Shown here: in pieces, positions 7,761 to 14,615 of the stretch | How the letters are laid out: the number at the start of each line of letters is the position of its first letter | How positions within the stretch are numbered: the first letter of the stretch is position 1 | Source of the DNA: Sedimenticola sp. | Lineage (GTDB): Bacteria; Pseudomonadota; Gammaproteobacteria; Chromatiales; Chromatiaceae | Direction of reading: 5' to 3' | NCBI GenBank assembly: GCA_002869585.1 | Contig: PKUO01000033.1 | Location: forward strand, 221-53,152 | DNA: 52,932 bases | Translations under genes and position numbers: made by a program | The notes under the pieces: generated by a model | Databases searched by the model: none | Told to the model about the DNA's origin: nothing | The model's input: only the letters and a program-made list of their open reading frames with translations

Positions 7761-9512
7761 TTACGATTCTCTGTATAACGGGCACTTGGTACGGTCATAC
7801 TCGTCACCCAGGGAATCCCAGACATAGTCCAGCGCCTTCTGGACGCCCGAGAAGAAATGATCCTCCTGCATGAATTCGATCAGACGGGTACGCCGGATCA
7901 CATCCATGAACTGCTTCTTCATCCCGGCAAACACCAGCTCTATACCCGTCGCCTTCAGCCGCTCCGCGAGATGGTGCAGCACCTCTTCACCCGTCGCGTC
8001 GATATGATTGATGCCTGAGGCATCGACAACGATATAGCGCAATTTGGGCTTGGAGGCGACCTCCTTGAGGATCTTGTTCTCAAAATAGCCTGCATTGGCG
8101 AAATAGAGCGAACCATCAAACCGCAGCAGAGAGATGGTGTCGCTGGTCGGCAGCGGATGTACCGAGATATCGCGCATCGAGCCATCTTTATAGCGTGAAA
8201 GTACCGCAACGCGCGGACGCATGGTGCGGATCACGAACAGCAGCAGCGAAAGCACCACGCCGGTCAGGATGCCCCCTTCCAGATGGGGCGCCAGGTAGAG
8301 GGTCAGGGCAAAGGTGATTACCGACACCACACCGTCCTGAGGCTGGGCCTTCCAGGCGTGAATCACTGGCGTCGCCTTGATCAGGTTGATTACCGCCAGG
8401 ATGATTACAGCCCCCAGAGTCGCAGTCGGCAGGTGATAGAGCAGCGGGGTAAGAAAGAGCAGAGTGATGCCCACTACTATTCCGGTCACAATGGAAGAAA
8501 ACCCAGTCTTGGCGCCGGCGTTGATATTGACTGCAGAGCGGGAGAAAGAACCTGATACCGGGTAGCCTGTGAACAGACCGGAAACCAGATTGCTGATCCC
8601 CTGCCCAACCAACTCCTGATTGGTGTCGAGACGCTGACGGGTCTGGGCAGCCATCGCCTTGGCGATCGCGATCGCCTCCATGAAACCGATCAGAGAGATG
8701 ATCACGGCGCTGGTGATCAACTGCTTGACCACCTCAAAATCGAATACCGGAATAGTGATACTGGGCAGGCCCTGGGGAATCGAGCCAACCACACCGCCGC
8801 CGCCGGCCTCAAAATCAAGCAACCAGGACGCCAGGGTAGTTACTACCACCGCGGCCAGAACACTGGGAACCTTGGGGTAATAACGTTTGAGAAGCAGCAT
8901 GATGGCAATCGCCACTATACCCATCAGAAGCGTTGGCCCATGTGTATGGTCGAGGGCCGCCAGTATGGTGTTATAAACGGTTTCATAGTGGTGTTCCGCC
9001 TGGGGCGCTGTAACACCAAACAGTTTGCCGAGCTGAGAGGTGGCAATGATCAGAGCGCCGGCATTGGTGAAACCAACCACCACAGGATGGGAGAGCAGAT
9101 CCACCACCACGCCCAGTCGTAACAGGCCGAGCGACATCTGAAACAGGCCCACCAGGATCGCCAGAATCATCGCATAGGCAAGGTAGCCATCGGGATTGGA
9201 CGAGGCCAGTGGACCCAGTGCAGCGGCGGTCATCAACGAGACCACGGCTACCGGACCGGTTGCCAGCTGACGCGAAGAGCCGAAGAAGGCAGCGACAATC
9301 GGCGGCAGGAAAGAGGCATAGAGCCCGACATAAGGCGGCAAACCCGCCAGCTGCGCATAGGCCATGGACTGGGGGACCAGAACCAAAGCCACCGTGATAC
9401 CCGCGAGGATATCCGCCTTCAGCGTATCCCTGTCACGCAGCTCGCCTATCCAGCGAAGAAATGGAACGAAACGACCAGGAATGCTCAATAAAAACTCTGT
9501 GACCCAGACCAC
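7761..9512 (-). CDS. SulP-family inorganic anion transporter with STAS domain
   Basis: A 583-aa inner-membrane transporter. The N-terminal part has the sulfate-transporter signature near residue 45 (VALVLVPQSMAYAQLAGLPP) and about 12-14 membrane helices; the C-terminal part (about 445-560) is a cytoplasmic STAS domain (VVDASGINHIDATGEE). Start is GTG at 9512 with AGGGGAAGG just upstream. Family members carry sulfate, bicarbonate or dicarboxylates; the substrate is not readable from sequence. In a sulfur-oxidising or carbon-fixing host, sulfate or bicarbonate are reasonable candidates. It is a single-gene transcript with its own terminator. Confidence 0.93.
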   Translation of the reverse strand: MVWVTEFLLSIPGRFVPFLRWIGELRDRDTLKADILAGITVALVLVPQSMAYAQLAGLPPYVGLYASFLPPIVAAFFGSSRQLATGPVAVVSLMTAAALGPLASSNPDGYLAYAMILAILVGLFQMSLGLLRLGVVVDLLSHPVVVGFTNAGALIIATSQLGKLFGVTAPQAEHHYETVYNTILAALDHTHGPTLLMGIVAIAIMLLLKRYYPKVPSVLAAVVVTTLASWLLDFEAGGGGVVGSIPQGLPSITIPVFDFEVVKQLITSAVIISLIGFMEAIAIAKAMAAQTRQRLDTNQELVGQGISNLVSGLFTGYPVSGSFSRSAVNINAGAKTGFSSIVTGIVVGITLLFLTPLLYHLPTATLGAVIILAVINLIKATPVIHAWKAQPQDGVVSVITFALTLYLAPHLEGGILTGVVLSLLLFVIRTMRPRVAVLSRYKDGSMRDISVHPLPTSDTISLLRFDGSLYFANAGYFENKILKEVASKPKLRYIVVDASGINHIDATGEEVLHHLAERLKATGIELVFAGMKKQFMDVIRRTRLIEFMQEDHFFSGVQKALDYVWDSLGDEYDRTKCPLYRES

Positions 9513-9771
9513 AACCTTCCCCTGTTATCAGACTAGTTAACCACAAAATCCGTCAGTATATATTGATATTCTGTTTTCATCGACAGTTTTTCTGGCTTCG
9601 GTTATTGATTTCCAAGGATTTTTCGCAGCGCAGCAAGCCGATTCGGCCAGTCCTGCCCTCGACGGGGGTGATCGAAAAGAATCATAAGCAAGAACGGCTG
9701 TGGGAAGGCGTATTCTATGCGTGGTCAACCGGCCTTGGATAGCAGGTTTCACAGCCTGCCCAGACTGTCAT

Positions 9772-10623
9772 TTATCCGCTGATCAGCATATCTGACATGT
9801 CATCGCGAAGGTCATCAAAATCCGGCTCGCTCATTCCCACATAACCCAATATCACCTCTTTGCCCTGCTCCCATTCGTGATCAGGGGTGATGGACCAGAA
9901 CAGCTTGTCGATATGCTCCGCCATCTTCAGAATGGCAAGCAGCGACCCCTCCTTGGTTACTTTTCCGCCATTTTCGGTGAGTTTCTCCACGGCGTTGTGG
10001 TGATCACGGATAATCTCGACAATATCCCTCTCCAGACCCCAGGAGCGGGCCAGAAAATAACCCAGTACCGCATGATTGGTGTTGTACTGCTGTTCTTCCA
10101 GGTCCGTGATAACACCACGCACACTGTTCAGATTTTCTTGCAGAAAGGCGGGATAATCGGAAAACTTCTGCATCAGCAATCCATGACCTGCATTGTGGAA
10201 AAGGCCAAGCATATAGGCCTCGTCCTGGGGGACTCCGCCGATGACCTTGGCAATTTTCGCCGACACCATGGCGACATTCGCCGGTGAATCCCAGAAGTTG
10301 GGAGGACTTGCCGTACCAGACGTTTCAAACGTCCTGCGCAGCGCCAGGCCAGTAACAATATTGAGGGTGTTGTGAATGCCCAACAGACTGGTCGCCTGCT
10401 GAATGGAGTTGACCTTGACACGCAGCCCGAAGAACGCGGAGTTTACCGTACGCAGCACCAGGGCGGAGATAGCGACATCCTGAGCGACAATATTGGCGAC
10501 ATCAGCGAGAATCGGATCATCCTTCTGCAACTCCTCCTGCAGTTTGGTAACGATAAAAGGCGCCGGGGGAATTTTTATCCCATCGATCAATTTCTGCGTT
10601 TCATCACGATCTGACGTCATCAA
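9772..10623 (-). CDS. HDOD domain protein
   Basis: A 283-aa cytoplasmic protein consisting of one HDOD domain, a non-catalytic relative of HD phosphohydrolases found in signalling proteins. The pattern is typical: an N-terminal PPAP-type start (KIPPAPFIVTKLQEEL), ISALVLRTVNSAFFGLRVKV and the motif SIQQATSLLGIHNTLNIVTG, then LGLFHNAGHGLLM in place of a metal-binding HD site. No receiver or GGDEF domain is attached. A second HDOD protein lies at 31423-32907. Specific role unknown. Confidence 0.85.
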   Translation of the reverse strand: MMTSDRDETQKLIDGIKIPPAPFIVTKLQEELQKDDPILADVANIVAQDVAISALVLRTVNSAFFGLRVKVNSIQQATSLLGIHNTLNIVTGLALRRTFETSGTASPPNFWDSPANVAMVSAKIAKVIGGVPQDEAYMLGLFHNAGHGLLMQKFSDYPAFLQENLNSVRGVITDLEEQQYNTNHAVLGYFLARSWGLERDIVEIIRDHHNAVEKLTENGGKVTKEGSLLAILKMAEHIDKLFWSITPDHEWEQGKEVILGYVGMSEPDFDDLRDDMSDMLISG

Positions 10624-10843
10624 TCAAGTCCTTGTGTGCTCTTTCTTTAATCTATTGCGGAGAATTCTAATTCAGTAACTGCGGATCATTCTATATTGAA
10701 TTCGGACTCTTGGGTGAGATTAGTCAGTAACGCGCCAAACACCCTCAGCGTCAATAATCGAGACTTTCACGCCGCCCGCACCCGTCAACCCCCTATGCTA
10801 TATTTTCAGTAGGAGTTGATCATTTACCCTTGATGGCGCGAGT

Positions 10844-11578
10844 ATGGCTAAGCAACTGCGTGAATGGCTTGATAACGATGTCAGCGCAATCCGCCACAAG
10901 CCCATGCGCTGGTTATCCGAGCAGTTTTTCTTCCGTGATCCCAATCGTGCCGTCTTCGCAGATTCCTCTTATTTCTTTCCGCCTGCGGATGGCATTATTC
11001 TCTATGCAACAACTGTAGATCCAGAGTCTGGCATTGTCGATATAAAGGGCAAACCCTATTCACTGCGAAACGCATTGCGTGACGATAGCTTCGATACTGA
11101 GTGCCTGGTGATTGGCATATTCATGACCTTTTATGACGTCCATATCAACCGGGTACCCTATGCGGGAAAGCTCTCCTATCGGGAACTCGATACCCTCGAC
11201 AGCTACAACTACCCTATGATCGATGTCGAGAAGGATATCCTCGATGAACTTTCAGTCAGCGCACGAAATGCCGGCTACCTGTTCAACAATCAACGCGTGG
11301 TCAACCGCATCTTCAGCATGGATCTGAAGCAGCACTACTATGTGCTGCAGATTGCTGATTACGATGTCGACTGCATCACCCCGTTCAAGCTCAAACAAAA
11401 CCAGCCCTTCTCGCAGAACCAGCGTTTCTCCATGATCCGTTATGGTTCCCAGGTAGACCTGATCATTCCCCTGTCCGATCGGTACGACTATGAACCGATG
11501 CTCGAGCCGGGCATGCATGTCGAGGCCGGTGTCGACCCGTTGGTAAGAATTATCGCTAAAAAGGGAAAGTTGCCTTAG
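10844..11578 (+). CDS. Phosphatidylserine-decarboxylase-like pyruvoyl enzyme
   Basis: A 244-aa protein of the PSD family, in which a precursor cuts itself at Gly-Ser and the Ser becomes a pyruvoyl cofactor. The triad is visible: Asp49 in FFPPADG, His100 in FYDVHINRVPYAGKL, and Gly201-Ser202 in MIRYGSQVDL. The entry motif FFFRDPNRAVF matches the N-terminus of short (type II) PSDs. It is longer than archaeal-type PSDs (about 210 aa) and shorter than E. coli Psd (322 aa), with extra residues around 112-160, and lacks an obvious membrane anchor. It starts a three-gene operon with a pentein enzyme and a MATE exporter, not with phospholipid genes, so the substrate may be an amino-acid derivative and not phosphatidylserine. 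The ATG at 10844 is the only usable in-frame start after the stop at 10817; its ribosome site is weak. Confidence 0.8.
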   Translation: MAKQLREWLDNDVSAIRHKPMRWLSEQFFFRDPNRAVFADSSYFFPPADGIILYATTVDPESGIVDIKGKPYSLRNALRDDSFDTECLVIGIFMTFYDVHINRVPYAGKLSYRELDTLDSYNYPMIDVEKDILDELSVSARNAGYLFNNQRVVNRIFSMDLKQHYYVLQIADYDVDCITPFKLKQNQPFSQNQRFSMIRYGSQVDLIIPLSDRYDYEPMLEPGMHVEAGVDPLVRIIAKKGKLP

Positions 11579-11592
11579 CAGGAGCGTCTGTC

Positions 11593-12564
11593 ATGAGTAC
11601 TGAATTCAGAAGAGAGAACCTGGCCGGAATCGCTGAGGGGCTGCAAACAACCAACCCCACAGCGCTAGGCAAGCCTGCGTTTCTGATGAACGTACCCTTT
11701 TCTCTGGCCGCGTATGTGGCGAATAATGCCTGGATGGAAGAGCTGAAAGGGGATGAACGCAAGGTCGACAGGACAAAGGCGATCAATCAGTTTTTACAGC
11801 TTTATCACTTCATGGCCGCAGACGCCTTGATCTATCTGTTGCCGACCCCGAAAGTCTCCGGCCTGCAGGACCTGGTCTATTGCGCCAACATGGGGGTTGT
11901 CCTTGAGCATGTCCCGGATCACAACACCGTCATACTCTCCAACTTCAGCACCCCTGTCAGGGTTCCGGAAACAAGGGTCGGTGAAACGTTTTTCGCCTCC
12001 ATGGGCTACCAGGTGGTTGAACCCGCCTACCATTTCGAAGGCGAGGCCGAACTGAAACACCTGCACGACAATGTCTATATCGGGGGGTATGGTACCCGTT
12101 CGGACAAGCGTGTCTATGACTGGATGGCAGAGACCTTCGACATGAACATCATTGCCGTGGAGGAGACCGACCCCTATCTCTATCACCTGGATTGTACCGT
12201 CTTTCCGCTGACCCGAGAGACCACCCTGGTTTGCACGGAAATGTACAAACCGGATGAGATCAAACAGATTGAGGCCGTTACTGATATCGTCGCGGTAAGC
12301 CTTGACGACTGCTTCTCAGGCATCTGCAACTCTGTTCGGCTGGGTAACACCATGCTGAATGCCTCAAACATCCACGATATGAAACCGGGAGACGAGTACT
12401 ACGTCGAGGAGAGGGAAAAGAACCGGAAACTCGAAGATATCGCTGTGCAATACGCCTTCGAGGTCTCCTTCTTCAACCTCAGCGAATTCCTCAAAAGTGG
12501 CGCACTGCTCTCCTGCATGGTGATGCATCTCAATCGGAAGTCCTATGACCTGGTGCTGCTGTAG
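11593..12564 (+). CDS. Pentein-fold amidinotransferase/dimethylarginine-hydrolase-like enzyme
   Basis: A 323-aa protein of the guanidine-modifying superfamily (DDAH, arginine deiminase, amidinotransferases). Matches are FLMNVPFSL near residue 30, the acidic motif FEGEAEL (148-154), GGYGTRS (164-170), the catalytic-type His198 and Asp200 in YHLDC, and a C-terminal catalytic-type Cys308 in SGALLSCMVMHL. These proteins hydrolyse or transfer the amidino group of arginine-like substrates through a cysteine adduct. An N-terminal extension of about 25 residues precedes the domain. It starts 14 bases after the decarboxylase gene and precedes a MATE exporter. The exact reaction is not predictable. Confidence 0.8.
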   Translation: MSTEFRRENLAGIAEGLQTTNPTALGKPAFLMNVPFSLAAYVANNAWMEELKGDERKVDRTKAINQFLQLYHFMAADALIYLLPTPKVSGLQDLVYCANMGVVLEHVPDHNTVILSNFSTPVRVPETRVGETFFASMGYQVVEPAYHFEGEAELKHLHDNVYIGGYGTRSDKRVYDWMAETFDMNIIAVEETDPYLYHLDCTVFPLTRETTLVCTEMYKPDEIKQIEAVTDIVAVSLDDCFSGICNSVRLGNTMLNASNIHDMKPGDEYYVEEREKNRKLEDIAVQYAFEVSFFNLSEFLKSGALLSCMVMHLNRKSYDLVLL

Positions 12565-12609
12565 TCGCCAACCCAAAGTCGTCTGGGTCCATGCCGGGAC
12601 AGTAAAGAT

Positions 12610-13941
12610 ATGAGATTTCGTCCAAGTTACCGCAGTATCTGGGGAATCTCCTTCCCGATCATAATCGCTGGTGTCAGCGAAACCATTGTTGACATCACCG
12701 ACACAATATTCCTCGCTCATTACGGCATTACCGAACTGGCGGCCATTGGCATGGCCGATGCAATCTATGGGCTCAGCCTGTTTTTGATCATGGGACTGGT
12801 CGATGGGATTCAAATCATTATCGGCAGGCGGGCAGGCCAGGAGCAACGCCATGAGATTGGACGCACCTTCAATCAGGGGCTCTATCTTCTCTTATTGGCG
12901 TCTCTACTCTCGCTGCTGTTAATCCTTGTGGCCGTGCCTGCGATCACCGATACCCTACTTGCCTCCCATGAAGTGCATAACGCGGTGAATCGATACCTGC
13001 ACATTGCCGCCTTTGCCCTGTTTTTCCAGTCCACCAATCTCGCACTCAGCGCATTTTATGTAGGCATTTCCAGAACGCGGGTGTTGATTGGGGGCGCAAT
13101 CATTCTCGCCATCACCAACATAAGCCTCGATTATCTGCTGATCTACGGCAATTTCGGTCTTCCCGAGATGGGTATTGAAGGCGCCGCGATTGCCACGCTA
13201 TCGTCAGAGATTGCGACCTTTCTTTTCCTCTTCGCGGAGGTTCTGCGCAAACGCTATGACCTAAGCTACCATCTTTTCAGGCTCTCCAAATGGAACATGG
13301 CTCTGGCCCAGCATTTGGTTTCCATCTCCATGCCGGTCTCCCTGGAAACCCTGGTCAGCATGGCGAAGTGGTTTCTACTGTTGGTCATCATTGAACAACT
13401 GGGTGAAGAGACCCTGGCTGGCGCAAATATCATCCTCTCCTGTTATGCACTGTTCATTATTCCCGTTGAGAGTTTTTCCGAAACCATCTGTTCAATGATC
13501 AGCAACCTGATTGGTCAGCACCATGAAAAAAGGCTCCGGTTGCTGATCCGGAGAACCATCAACCTCAGTTACTCGGTTGTCGTGCCCATGCTGGCCCTGA
13601 CCCTGCTTTTTCCAGATCAGGTACTGTCATTGTTTACCCCGGATAAGGAGATCATCGCCGCCTCGCACTATGGTCTGATAGTGATGGTTTGCATAACCCT
13701 CATTGCCGTGCCTGCCGAGACCTACTACTCGGCTGTCGCCGGAACGGGTGACACGCGCATCATCCTGGCCATTCAGTGCATCGTCACCCTGGTTACTCTG
13801 ACCTATGCCTGGTATGCGGCACTGATCGCCGAACTGCCGCTGCAATACATACTCCTGGCCGAGATGCTGGGCGCCACAACCTGCCTGGTGCTCTCCTGGT
13901 TGTGGTTCAGAAGCGGACGCTGGAATCGCCTGAATATCTAG
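12610..13941 (+). CDS. MATE-family efflux transporter
   Basis: A 443-aa inner-membrane exporter with 12 predicted helices in two halves, the MATE topology (first half opening SIWGISFPIIIAGVSETIVD, second half near residue 240 with LVSISMPVSLETL). MATE proteins expel organic cations or metabolites using an ion gradient. It lies 45 bases after the pentein enzyme gene on the same strand, so it probably exports the product of the two enzymes. A short hairpin overlaps its stop. Confidence 0.88.
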   Translation: MRFRPSYRSIWGISFPIIIAGVSETIVDITDTIFLAHYGITELAAIGMADAIYGLSLFLIMGLVDGIQIIIGRRAGQEQRHEIGRTFNQGLYLLLLASLLSLLLILVAVPAITDTLLASHEVHNAVNRYLHIAAFALFFQSTNLALSAFYVGISRTRVLIGGAIILAITNISLDYLLIYGNFGLPEMGIEGAAIATLSSEIATFLFLFAEVLRKRYDLSYHLFRLSKWNMALAQHLVSISMPVSLETLVSMAKWFLLLVIIEQLGEETLAGANIILSCYALFIIPVESFSETICSMISNLIGQHHEKRLRLLIRRTINLSYSVVVPMLALTLLFPDQVLSLFTPDKEIIAASHYGLIVMVCITLIAVPAETYYSAVAGTGDTRIILAIQCIVTLVTLTYAWYAALIAELPLQYILLAEMLGATTCLVLSWLWFRSGRWNRLNI

Positions 13942-13959
13942 GGCCCGTTGGCAGGCCCT
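13940..13959. terminator. Weak hairpin between convergent genes
   Basis: AGGGCC (13940-13945) and GGCCCT (13954-13959) can pair around an 8-nt loop in the 23-base gap between the MATE gene and the convergent peroxiredoxin-like gene. There is no U-run on either strand, so termination here is only possible. Confidence 0.3.
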
Positions 13960-13964
13960 GGAAT

Positions 13965-14615
13965 CTACTCCGCTGACGATAGCCTGGCGACGATCTCGGC
14001 AGGCTCCATGCGCTGGGTGTAGTCTGAATTGACAAAGTCGTAGAAGATCACACCATCCTGACCAATGATGTAAGTTGCAGGCACCGGTAATTTGAAGCTC
14101 TCATCACCATTAAAGGCGGGAATATCAATACCCAGTTTTGCATAAATCTCTCGTAAGGATTCAGGCAGTTCGAAAACCAGCCCCAGTTGCTCGGCAACCC
14201 GATTACCCGGATCACTGAGGATATCGATTGCGATATCGTTGCGTTCAGCGGTGGTCATCGCCTTGTCCGGCGTTTCCGGAGACATTCCCACAAGCCGTGC
14301 GCCCCGGGCTTCGATCTCAGGCAGAAAAGCATGCAGGGCTTTCATCTCCATATTGCAGTATGGGCACCAACCGCCCCGGTAGATGTTGAGCACCAGGCTC
14401 GATTGCTGTAGATAATCCGATAAACGCCGTAGGTCACCGCGCTGATTAGCCAGTTGGAAATCCGGCATGCAGTCTCCAGCCTTCAGGGCACAGTTCTCGA
14501 TATCCAGTTTTCTTACATCCTCCGTACCCTGGACCATTACACCTAGGACTTCCGCAGGCAGATTGGCTGCTTTCACTGCGTTATAGGCATCTATTTCGTC
14601 TTTCAATACACCCAT
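13965..14615 (-). CDS. Peroxiredoxin-like (AhpC/TSA family) thiol protein
   Basis: A 216-aa thioredoxin-fold protein. The active region reads NIYRGGWCPYCNMEMKAL with Cys84 and Cys87 as a CPYC pair, as in the AhpC/TSA-like peroxiredoxin subfamily that uses a thioredoxin-like CXXC. About 45 residues precede the fold (MGVLKDEIDAYNAVKAANL). It likely reduces peroxides or other thiol-reactive compounds in the cytosol. It is divergent from a TetR gene, with repeated AT-rich motifs in the 131-base gap, so it is probably the target of that repressor. Confidence 0.85.
   Translation of the reverse strand: MGVLKDEIDAYNAVKAANLPAEVLGVMVQGTEDVRKLDIENCALKAGDCMPDFQLANQRGDLRRLSDYLQQSSLVLNIYRGGWCPYCNMEMKALHAFLPEIEARGARLVGMSPETPDKAMTTAERNDIAIDILSDPGNRVAEQLGLVFELPESLREIYAKLGIDIPAFNGDESFKLPVPATYIIGQDGVIFYDFVNSDYTQRMEPAEIVARLSSAE

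Follow-up and report, generated by a model that had tools for sequence, protein, structure and literature searches.

What do a relative of phosphatidylserine decarboxylase (PSD), a pentein of the guanidine-enzyme type and a MATE exporter make together when their genes stand side by side? Such a trio lies at positions 10,844 to 13,941 of a 52,932-nucleotide stretch of DNA from Sedimenticola sp. (assembly GCA_002869585.1, contig PKUO01000033.1), and this whole stretch is called the window below. The three open reading frames share the forward strand and are separated by gaps of 14 and 45 bases. An original prediction, made from the sequence alone, had described this arrangement, the catalytic residues of genes 1 and 2 and the MATE identity of gene 3, all of which were confirmed. 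It had proposed a pathway that decarboxylates and modifies an arginine- or amino-acid-derived compound and secretes it. This interpretation was right in outline and is partly supported: the decarboxylase, the guanidine-type pentein and the exporter stand, but the pentein is nearest to arginine dihydrolase, which makes a simple polyamine more probable as the product than an amidino-modified compound.

We give a probability of about one half to the following reading. The first two genes would encode a two-enzyme route free of pyridoxal phosphate (PLP), from arginine through ornithine to putrescine, followed by export, in which the PSD-like protein would be a pyruvoyl ornithine decarboxylase of the PSD fold. 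This reading is built on the linkage and co-occurrence of the genes, on the retention of catalytic residues, on the predicted folds and on the separation of the PSD-like protein from other PF02666 proteins; from these we infer self-cleavage, both substrates, the product, its export and the role of the pair in phages.

A conserved gene pair with a replaceable exporter

A scan of one genome per species yielded 55 loci, a count that includes one phage fragment (L059) filed in a bacterial bin. The PSD-like gene adjoins the pentein gene in 49 of them, with the PSD-like gene first in 45 and the pentein gene first in 4. Three of the six remaining loci (L018, L020 and L044) belong to genomes with a PSD-like copy elsewhere, which shares 65, 60 and 51% identity, respectively, with that of the window; two (L050 and L066) lie at contig ends; and for the last (L051) a PF02666 search of the genome found no PSD-like gene. 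Judged by record titles, which may be wrong for metagenome bins, the pentein occurs in Pseudomonadota, Sulfurimonas, Latescibacterota, Actinomycetota, Planctomycetota, Verrucomicrobiota, Acidobacteriota, Eisenbacteria, KSB1 and Bacteroidota. In eight of these ten groups the two genes stand side by side, whereas the Planctomycetota and KSB1 loci showed no such pairing. Hosts of the pair include actinomycetes and Xenorhabdus. An identical PSD-like protein was found in three Bacteroidota records named Parabacteroides and Phocaeicola (L060, L061 and L062, ∼7989-9606), reflecting either one species under several names or a recent transfer.

Within the class of the source organism, two of 369 sampled genomes (source included) contained a close pentein; these two also had a close PSD-like protein, and both showed the same three-gene order. 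One further genome had a weak PSD-like match (1.8e-23) and eight had weak pentein matches. One genome from a different family of this class shows an identical trio order, with identities of 68, 64 and 58% for genes 1, 2 and 3. Since this order recurs in another family and genes 1 and 2 adjoin across phyla and in phages, the arrangement exceeds chance. The pairwise distances of the two proteins are correlated (r 0.864 over 46 rows), a value reached by none of 999 permutations. The predicted coupling of a guanidine-type pentein to the decarboxylase is conserved, both in the 49 genome loci above and in 103 of 106 viral loci (below).

The MATE protein of the window scores 198.7 bits with TIGR00797, above the cut-off of 147.4. 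Across the 55 loci, a MATE gene lies within 500 bases of the pair in 30 (21 on the same strand, 9 on the opposite strand) and an ABC exporter gene in 14 (12 downstream, 2 upstream). One or the other is therefore within 500 bases in 44 loci, and 4 more have one further off. In each of the two ABC proteins tested, a single chain combines a membrane domain (PF00664) with an ATPase domain (PF00005). Matching to four query proteins found no exporter in the other 7 loci, which include the phage fragment and three Bacteroidota loci. The core of the module is the two-gene pair, and MATE is interchangeable with an unrelated ABC exporter. The original prediction of a three-gene unit is incomplete in this respect, and it had not foreseen the occurrence in phages. 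The recruitment of two unrelated exporter families argues that a product leaves the cell.

Gene 1 probably does not encode a true phosphatidylserine decarboxylase

The PSD-like protein matches PF02666 with 88.1 bits, against a Pfam gathering score of 22, and retains Asp49, His100 and Gly201-Ser202, the catalytic residues and self-cleavage site. All four positions are kept in 97 of 97 distinct viral PSD-like proteins. The source genome (3.93 Mb) holds two PF02666 matches: the window gene, at 1.3e-24, and a stronger gene on contig 92, at 3.1e-62. PF02666 was searched in 28 genomes, all except the source genome having been reached via homologous loci and the L022 genome lying outside the set. A separate, stronger PF02666 gene was found beside the PSD-like match in 22 of them, source included; the PSD-like copy was recognised by position or score in most genomes and by alignment in three. 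The PSD-like match is the only one in G371, G372, G381 and G382. G376 matches only at its other gene, its PSD-like frame being broken, and no match was found in G388.

In a tree, 44 PSD-like rows were split from 20 other PF02666 proteins by a branch of length 2.4 with support 96/99. This tree carries a warning for long branches meeting, and the 20 comparison proteins come from the same genome set and include two (L089 and L090) without the catalytic Ser and His. The original prediction had placed the first gene apart from true Psd and had named in advance what would speak against it; on each of those points the outcome went its way, with a second psd in the source genome, no grouping with the other PF02666 proteins and a conserved linkage.

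Side by side with these results, two irregular members of the family were noted. The L089 and L090 proteins represent a third PF02666 paralogue of ∼220 residues in G369 and G370, probably an inactive PSD relative. At the Photorhabdus tasmaniensis locus (L058, 685-2420) the PSD-like gene is split around a 345-residue reverse frame, with a full-length pentein and an ABC exporter alongside. The 48-row alignment of PSD-like proteins takes in some disrupted or incomplete entries (L025, L064 and L058, the last in two pieces) as well as the identical rows L060-L062.

Two features of the sequence distinguish the PSD-like proteins from short PSDs. The best 19-residue hydropathy before the FFRDP motif averaged -0.18 in 43 PSD-like rows, none of which exceeded 1.6, against 1.55 in the 20 other PF02666 proteins, of which 8 exceeded 1.6, all of the short type; this measure separates the PSD-like proteins poorly from long, E. 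coli-type PSDs, and amphipathic helices would escape it. According to PMC7952604, the N-terminal helices by which E. coli PSD binds the membrane are amphipathic, hydrophobic residues contact the bound lipid, and His144 mutants are inactive. The second feature is that the short-PSD motif Q-I-A-G-x-x-A-R-R-I reads Q-I-A-D-Y-D-V-D-C-I in the PSD-like family. D172 and D174 are each present in 47 of 47 rows and D176 in 41 (Asn in 6), where the 20 other proteins have G/A/K, mixed residues and R/G/D/A, respectively. Among the 97 distinct viral proteins, D172 and D174 are each kept in 96. The replacement of neutral or basic residues by acidic ones suggests that the substrate is cationic.

An AlphaFold model of the PSD-like protein, with a predicted local distance difference test (pLDDT) score of 83.5, matched 11 solved chains at E ≤ 0.001, ten of E. 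coli PSD and one of PsiD, and His100 aligned with the His of the DYH motif of E. coli PSD. PsiD is an L-tryptophan decarboxylase that serves psilocybin synthesis, and its place among the matches shows that the PSD fold can accept a free amino acid. On this evidence a phosphatidylserine decarboxylase is an improbable identity for gene 1.

The pentein is a candidate arginine dihydrolase

The pentein keeps the guanidine-enzyme residues, namely FEGEAEL at 148-154, His198, Asp200 and Cys308. Its nearest NCBIfam profile is the arginine dihydrolase NF052232 (5.3e-24, 84.9 bits). The match ends at position 270 of the 696 in the profile, and the protein, which stops at 323 residues, lacks the C-terminal ornithine cyclodeaminase domain. 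With the dimethylarginine dimethylaminohydrolase (DDAH) profile NF045659 it scores 79.6 bits, below the cut-off of 300. The AlphaFold model (pLDDT 89.9) had ArgZ and AgrE as its top structural matches, followed by DDAH. Against the ArgZ catalytic domain (6jv0, 6juz and 6jv1) the template modelling (TM) score by target was 0.88-0.90, with E 2.6e-21 and TM 0.88 for 6jv0.

Alignment with the wild-type and N71S chains equates Asn99 with ArgZ Asn71 and Cys308 with Cys264, the ArgZ numbers 71 and 264 being taken from PDB titles; the N71S crystal chain has Ser in the Asn99 column. The title of the ArgZ(N71S) entry describes a protein covalently bound to a reaction intermediate, and a role of Asn71 in the second hydrolysis is in line with it. 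Asn99, Arg123, Glu149, Arg169, His198 and Cys308 are invariant in every lettered row of a 60-row pentein alignment and in 100 of 100 distinct viral pentein proteins. Arg123 and Arg169 align with ArgZ Arg90 and Arg139, which we take to hold the substrate carboxylate, and their invariance suggests that the pentein substrate retains its carboxylate. Deiminases have Asp at the position of ArgZ Asn71. If these roles are right, the expected reaction of the pentein is the conversion of arginine to ornithine. An amidinotransferase was dropped as the lead identity, as the closest structures and profiles are those of ArgZ and AgrE; this is the ground for preferring a simple polyamine to an amidino-modified product.

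The pair in phages

Scans of IMG/VR gave 227, 212 and 206 confirmed matches, of which the best 80 per scan were taken. The first two scans gave the same 80, and the resulting 159 loci were reduced to 106 distinct loci by dropping identical PSD (or pentein) matches. Both genes are present in 103 of these, mostly from T4-like phages, and the 3 exceptions are at contig ends. The order is pentein-PSD in 101 viral loci, and in 82 the two matched stretches are 2 bases apart. Of the 103 pair-bearing loci, 96 have a match to a T4-type gp23 major capsid protein, which lies <1 kb upstream of the pair in 80. In PHROGs the two proteins are families of unknown function, 12759 and 12670. The phage fragment among the bacterial loci (L059, 1-9541, filed in a Flavobacteriales bin) shares the gp21, gp22 and gp23 families of the T4-like phage contigs in addition to the pair.

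Among 50,697 cultured phage records, 45 carry the PSD-like gene (39 Campylobacter, 6 Bacteroides) and 47 the pentein, the 47 including all 45. The two pentein-only records are a Xanthomonas phage and a Campylobacter record with a fragmentary match. The former gene (phiXF1, PP475461.1, 37835-38668) is annotated as DDAH and is 22.5% like the window pentein; no PSD-like match was found in that record. The two genes are adjacent in Bacteroides phage DAC19 and 42 kb apart in Campylobacter phage NCTC12673. Each of the 39 PSD-bearing Campylobacter records also carries the pentein, with starts 39.9-93.5 kb apart in record coordinates; treating the records as circular gives a separation of 39.0 kb or more. 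This co-occurrence without linkage indicates a joint function, although the 39 records are close relatives, include duplicate entries of one phage and amount to one or a few events. The GenBank note of a Campylobacter phage PSD-like gene (L094, 6001-6768) cites similarity to a protein of record AF210249, which we take to be the bleomycin cluster.

Polyamine genes near the pair and in its genomes

A few neighbouring genes give modest support to an arginine-to-putrescine reading. In Longimycelium (L049) an agmatine deiminase homologue follows directly after a PSD-pentein-ABC set (7.7e-82, below its cut-off). At one Xenorhabdus locus an aminobutyraldehyde dehydrogenase and a 4-aminobutyrate transaminase, each above its curated cut-off, lie within 6 kb of the pair, and a second Xenorhabdus locus has counterparts 94 and 91% identical, respectively. 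Two other Xenorhabdus loci, L055 (4930-6621) and L057, have a different protein upstream of the pair in place of the aminobutyraldehyde dehydrogenase set, in L055 a weak relative of FAD-linked oxidases.

Nine genomes have a single PF02784 match. Seven were classified (G374 and G381 being left out), and in all seven the match is LysA. None of these seven matches PF01276, and five also have no match to PF02675. In these five of the 28 genomes searched, the pair may be the only putrescine route, with the proviso that other families, such as the archaeal pyruvoyl arginine decarboxylase (ADC), were not searched, that several of the genomes are drafts and that no PSD-like gene was found in one of the five (G388).

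Proposed route and alternative explanations

In the proposed route, the pentein would hydrolyse L-arginine to L-ornithine, CO2 and two ammonia, as an ArgZ-type dihydrolase. The PSD-fold protein would cleave itself between Gly201 and Ser202, a pyruvoyl group forming at Ser202, and would decarboxylate ornithine to putrescine with the help of acidic residues at positions that are basic or neutral elsewhere in the PSD family. Bacteria would usually export the putrescine through the adjoining MATE or ABC pump. Phages carry the pair amid structural genes, and there the product would remain inside the infected cell, for instance as a counter-ion for DNA packaging. The broader claim is put forward tentatively, at somewhat short of even odds: a PSD-family enzyme would be a further fold for ornithine decarboxylase (ODC), working with an ArgZ-like dihydrolase, spread over at least eight bacterial phyla and common as an unrecognised module of T4-like phages, right after the major capsid gene, where it is annotated, if at all, as phospholipid or amidinotransferase genes.

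Several observations weigh against this route. Both enzymes fall short of equivalog-level assignment: the best NCBIfam score of the PSD-like protein is 71 bits against an equivalog cut-off of 183, with short phosphatidylserine decarboxylases nearest, and the pentein score with NF052232 compares with a cut-off of 450. Position 176 is Asn in 81 of the 97 distinct viral PSD-like proteins, and D174 is replaced by Gln in the Campylobacter phage protein. Polyamine-gene neighbours were seen in 3 of 55 loci only, by matching to three query proteins. The source genome has a biosynthetic arginine decarboxylase, SpeA, above its cut-off, and a PF02784 frame of SpeA size (∼620-730 residues) occurs in 10 of the 28 genomes, source included. 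The pair is therefore not needed for basal putrescine in the source organism, and its role as a plain substitute for missing SpeA or SpeC was rejected as a general rule. AdoMet decarboxylase and spermidine synthase had no match in 10 phage records (8 of them IMG/VR contigs, possibly fragments), and a phage spermidine pathway was rejected on this basis.

The same two chemistries could also act on another guanidino or amino acid and yield a specialised exported metabolite instead of putrescine. Exporters of two unrelated families beside 44 of 55 loci would suit such a product, as would the patchy spread (2 of 369 genomes of the class) and hosts such as actinomycetes and Xenorhabdus. We nevertheless consider it unlikely, as no gene family beyond the pair and the exporters is widely common across lineages (by rough gene calls), the position of the pair beside phage structural genes fits a bulk metabolite better, and the few informative neighbours belong to polyamine metabolism. 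Putrescine itself might be reached in the other order, the PSD-like protein decarboxylating arginine to agmatine and the pentein hydrolysing agmatine to putrescine or N-carbamoylputrescine. The Longimycelium agmatine deiminase homologue would fit, D172 and D174 suit arginine as well as ornithine, and the decarboxylase gene comes first in most bacterial loci. This order seems doubtful given the invariance of Arg123 and Arg169, which suggests a substrate that keeps its carboxylate, and given that the closest pentein structures are those of arginine, not agmatine, enzymes.

Hypermodification by putrescine is known in phages, and the 103 distinct viral loci with the pair leave room for a DNA- or protein-modifying role there, in which, for example, base-attached ornithine would be decarboxylated and the bacterial copies would do something derived. 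The exporters that adjoin those bacterial copies indicate a free small molecule instead and make this role improbable. A true phosphatidylserine decarboxylase serving phospholipid synthesis is highly improbable. The PF02666 score above gathering, the four genomes in which the PSD-like match is the only one found and the poor discrimination of the hydropathy measure from long PSDs speak for it; the stronger psd in 22 of 28 genomes, the separate clade, the absence of the hydrophobic segment found in short PSDs, the residue swap at 172-176 and the lack of a lipid gene among the few identified neighbours disfavour it.

Locus and flanking genes

Features of the locus are collected in Table 1. The trio is flanked by genes for an HDOD protein and for an AhpC/TSA peroxiredoxin and thus has no phospholipid gene next to it, as the original prediction had stated. 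No relatives of the two flanking genes were seen beside the pair in other loci, for which gene calls are rough where G+C is high. The count of promoter-like and terminator-like sites in 10600-14200 was not above that in shuffled sequences. In a related genome (G337, locus L004, 3212-3937) the gene upstream of the trio resembles, by eye, a kinase of the polyphosphate kinase 2 type; this gene is absent beside the window trio.

Table 1. Genes of the trio and its immediate neighbours in the window
Feature	Coordinates	Strand	Properties
PSD-like gene	10844..11578	+	244 aa; PF02666 8.1e-25
Pentein gene	11593..12564	+	323 aa; ArgZ-like model; no Pfam match
MATE exporter gene	12610..13941	+	443 aa; MatE 3.2e-45 (Pfam)
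HDOD protein, divergent upstream neighbour, outside module	9772..10623	-	PF08668 9.6e-43
AhpC/TSA peroxiredoxin, downstream neighbour, outside module	13965..14615	-	PF00578 4.3e-28

Significance and comparison with known systems

If the proposed route is right, genome annotation has missed a route to putrescine because each of its genes is named for something else. PHROG families 12759 and 12670 would be explained, and the treatment of viral psd-like genes as phospholipid genes would come into question. Pyruvoyl decarboxylases that act on amino acids to make polyamines would gain a further independent origin, and two small proteins would suffice for direct tests of the roles of polyamines in phage packaging and of bacterial polyamine export.

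No description of the pair was found in the full-text literature searched, a body whose coverage leaves out most subscription journals and bioRxiv preprints. In PMC9992855, viral arginase, PLP- and pyruvoyl-dependent decarboxylases, agmatine iminohydrolase (AIH) and N-carbamoylputrescine amidohydrolase (NCPAH) are described, and a SpeD-derived enzyme is counted as a third fold that decarboxylates ornithine. Neither the word phosphatidylserine nor the word dihydrolase appears in the text of PMC9992855 or PMC10407285. PMC11360552 treats viral psd as a phosphatidylethanolamine synthesis gene of negligible abundance and also discusses creatine genes of viruses.

The closest counterparts of the pentein are ArgZ and AgrE of cyanobacteria (PDB 6juy-6jv1 and 6lrf-6lrh), which it resembles in fold and in the residues aligned to Asn71, Arg90, Glu118, Arg139, His168 and Cys264. 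It differs from them in being 21-25% identical, in having no ornithine cyclodeaminase domain and in being paired with a decarboxylase. The PSD-like protein shares with the short, PRK05305-type phosphatidylserine/archaetidylserine decarboxylases the fold, the DVHxNRxP motif, the GS self-cleavage motif and Asp49, His100 and Ser202. Unlike them, it has no hydrophobic N-terminal segment, has D-Y-D-V-D-C for G-x-x-A-R-R, forms a separate deep clade and is accompanied by a stronger psd in most of the genomes searched. PsiD (PDB 8x4q) is a PSD-fold enzyme acting on a free amino acid, as is proposed for the PSD-like protein, but its substrate is tryptophan and it is 13% identical to the PSD-like protein in the fold alignment. 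The SpeD-derived pyruvoyl ODC and ADC of bacteria, archaea and phages (PMC9992855 and PMC10407285) would be the nearest functional parallel: they carry out the same chemistry as is proposed here and are likewise borne by phages, but they belong to a different protein family.

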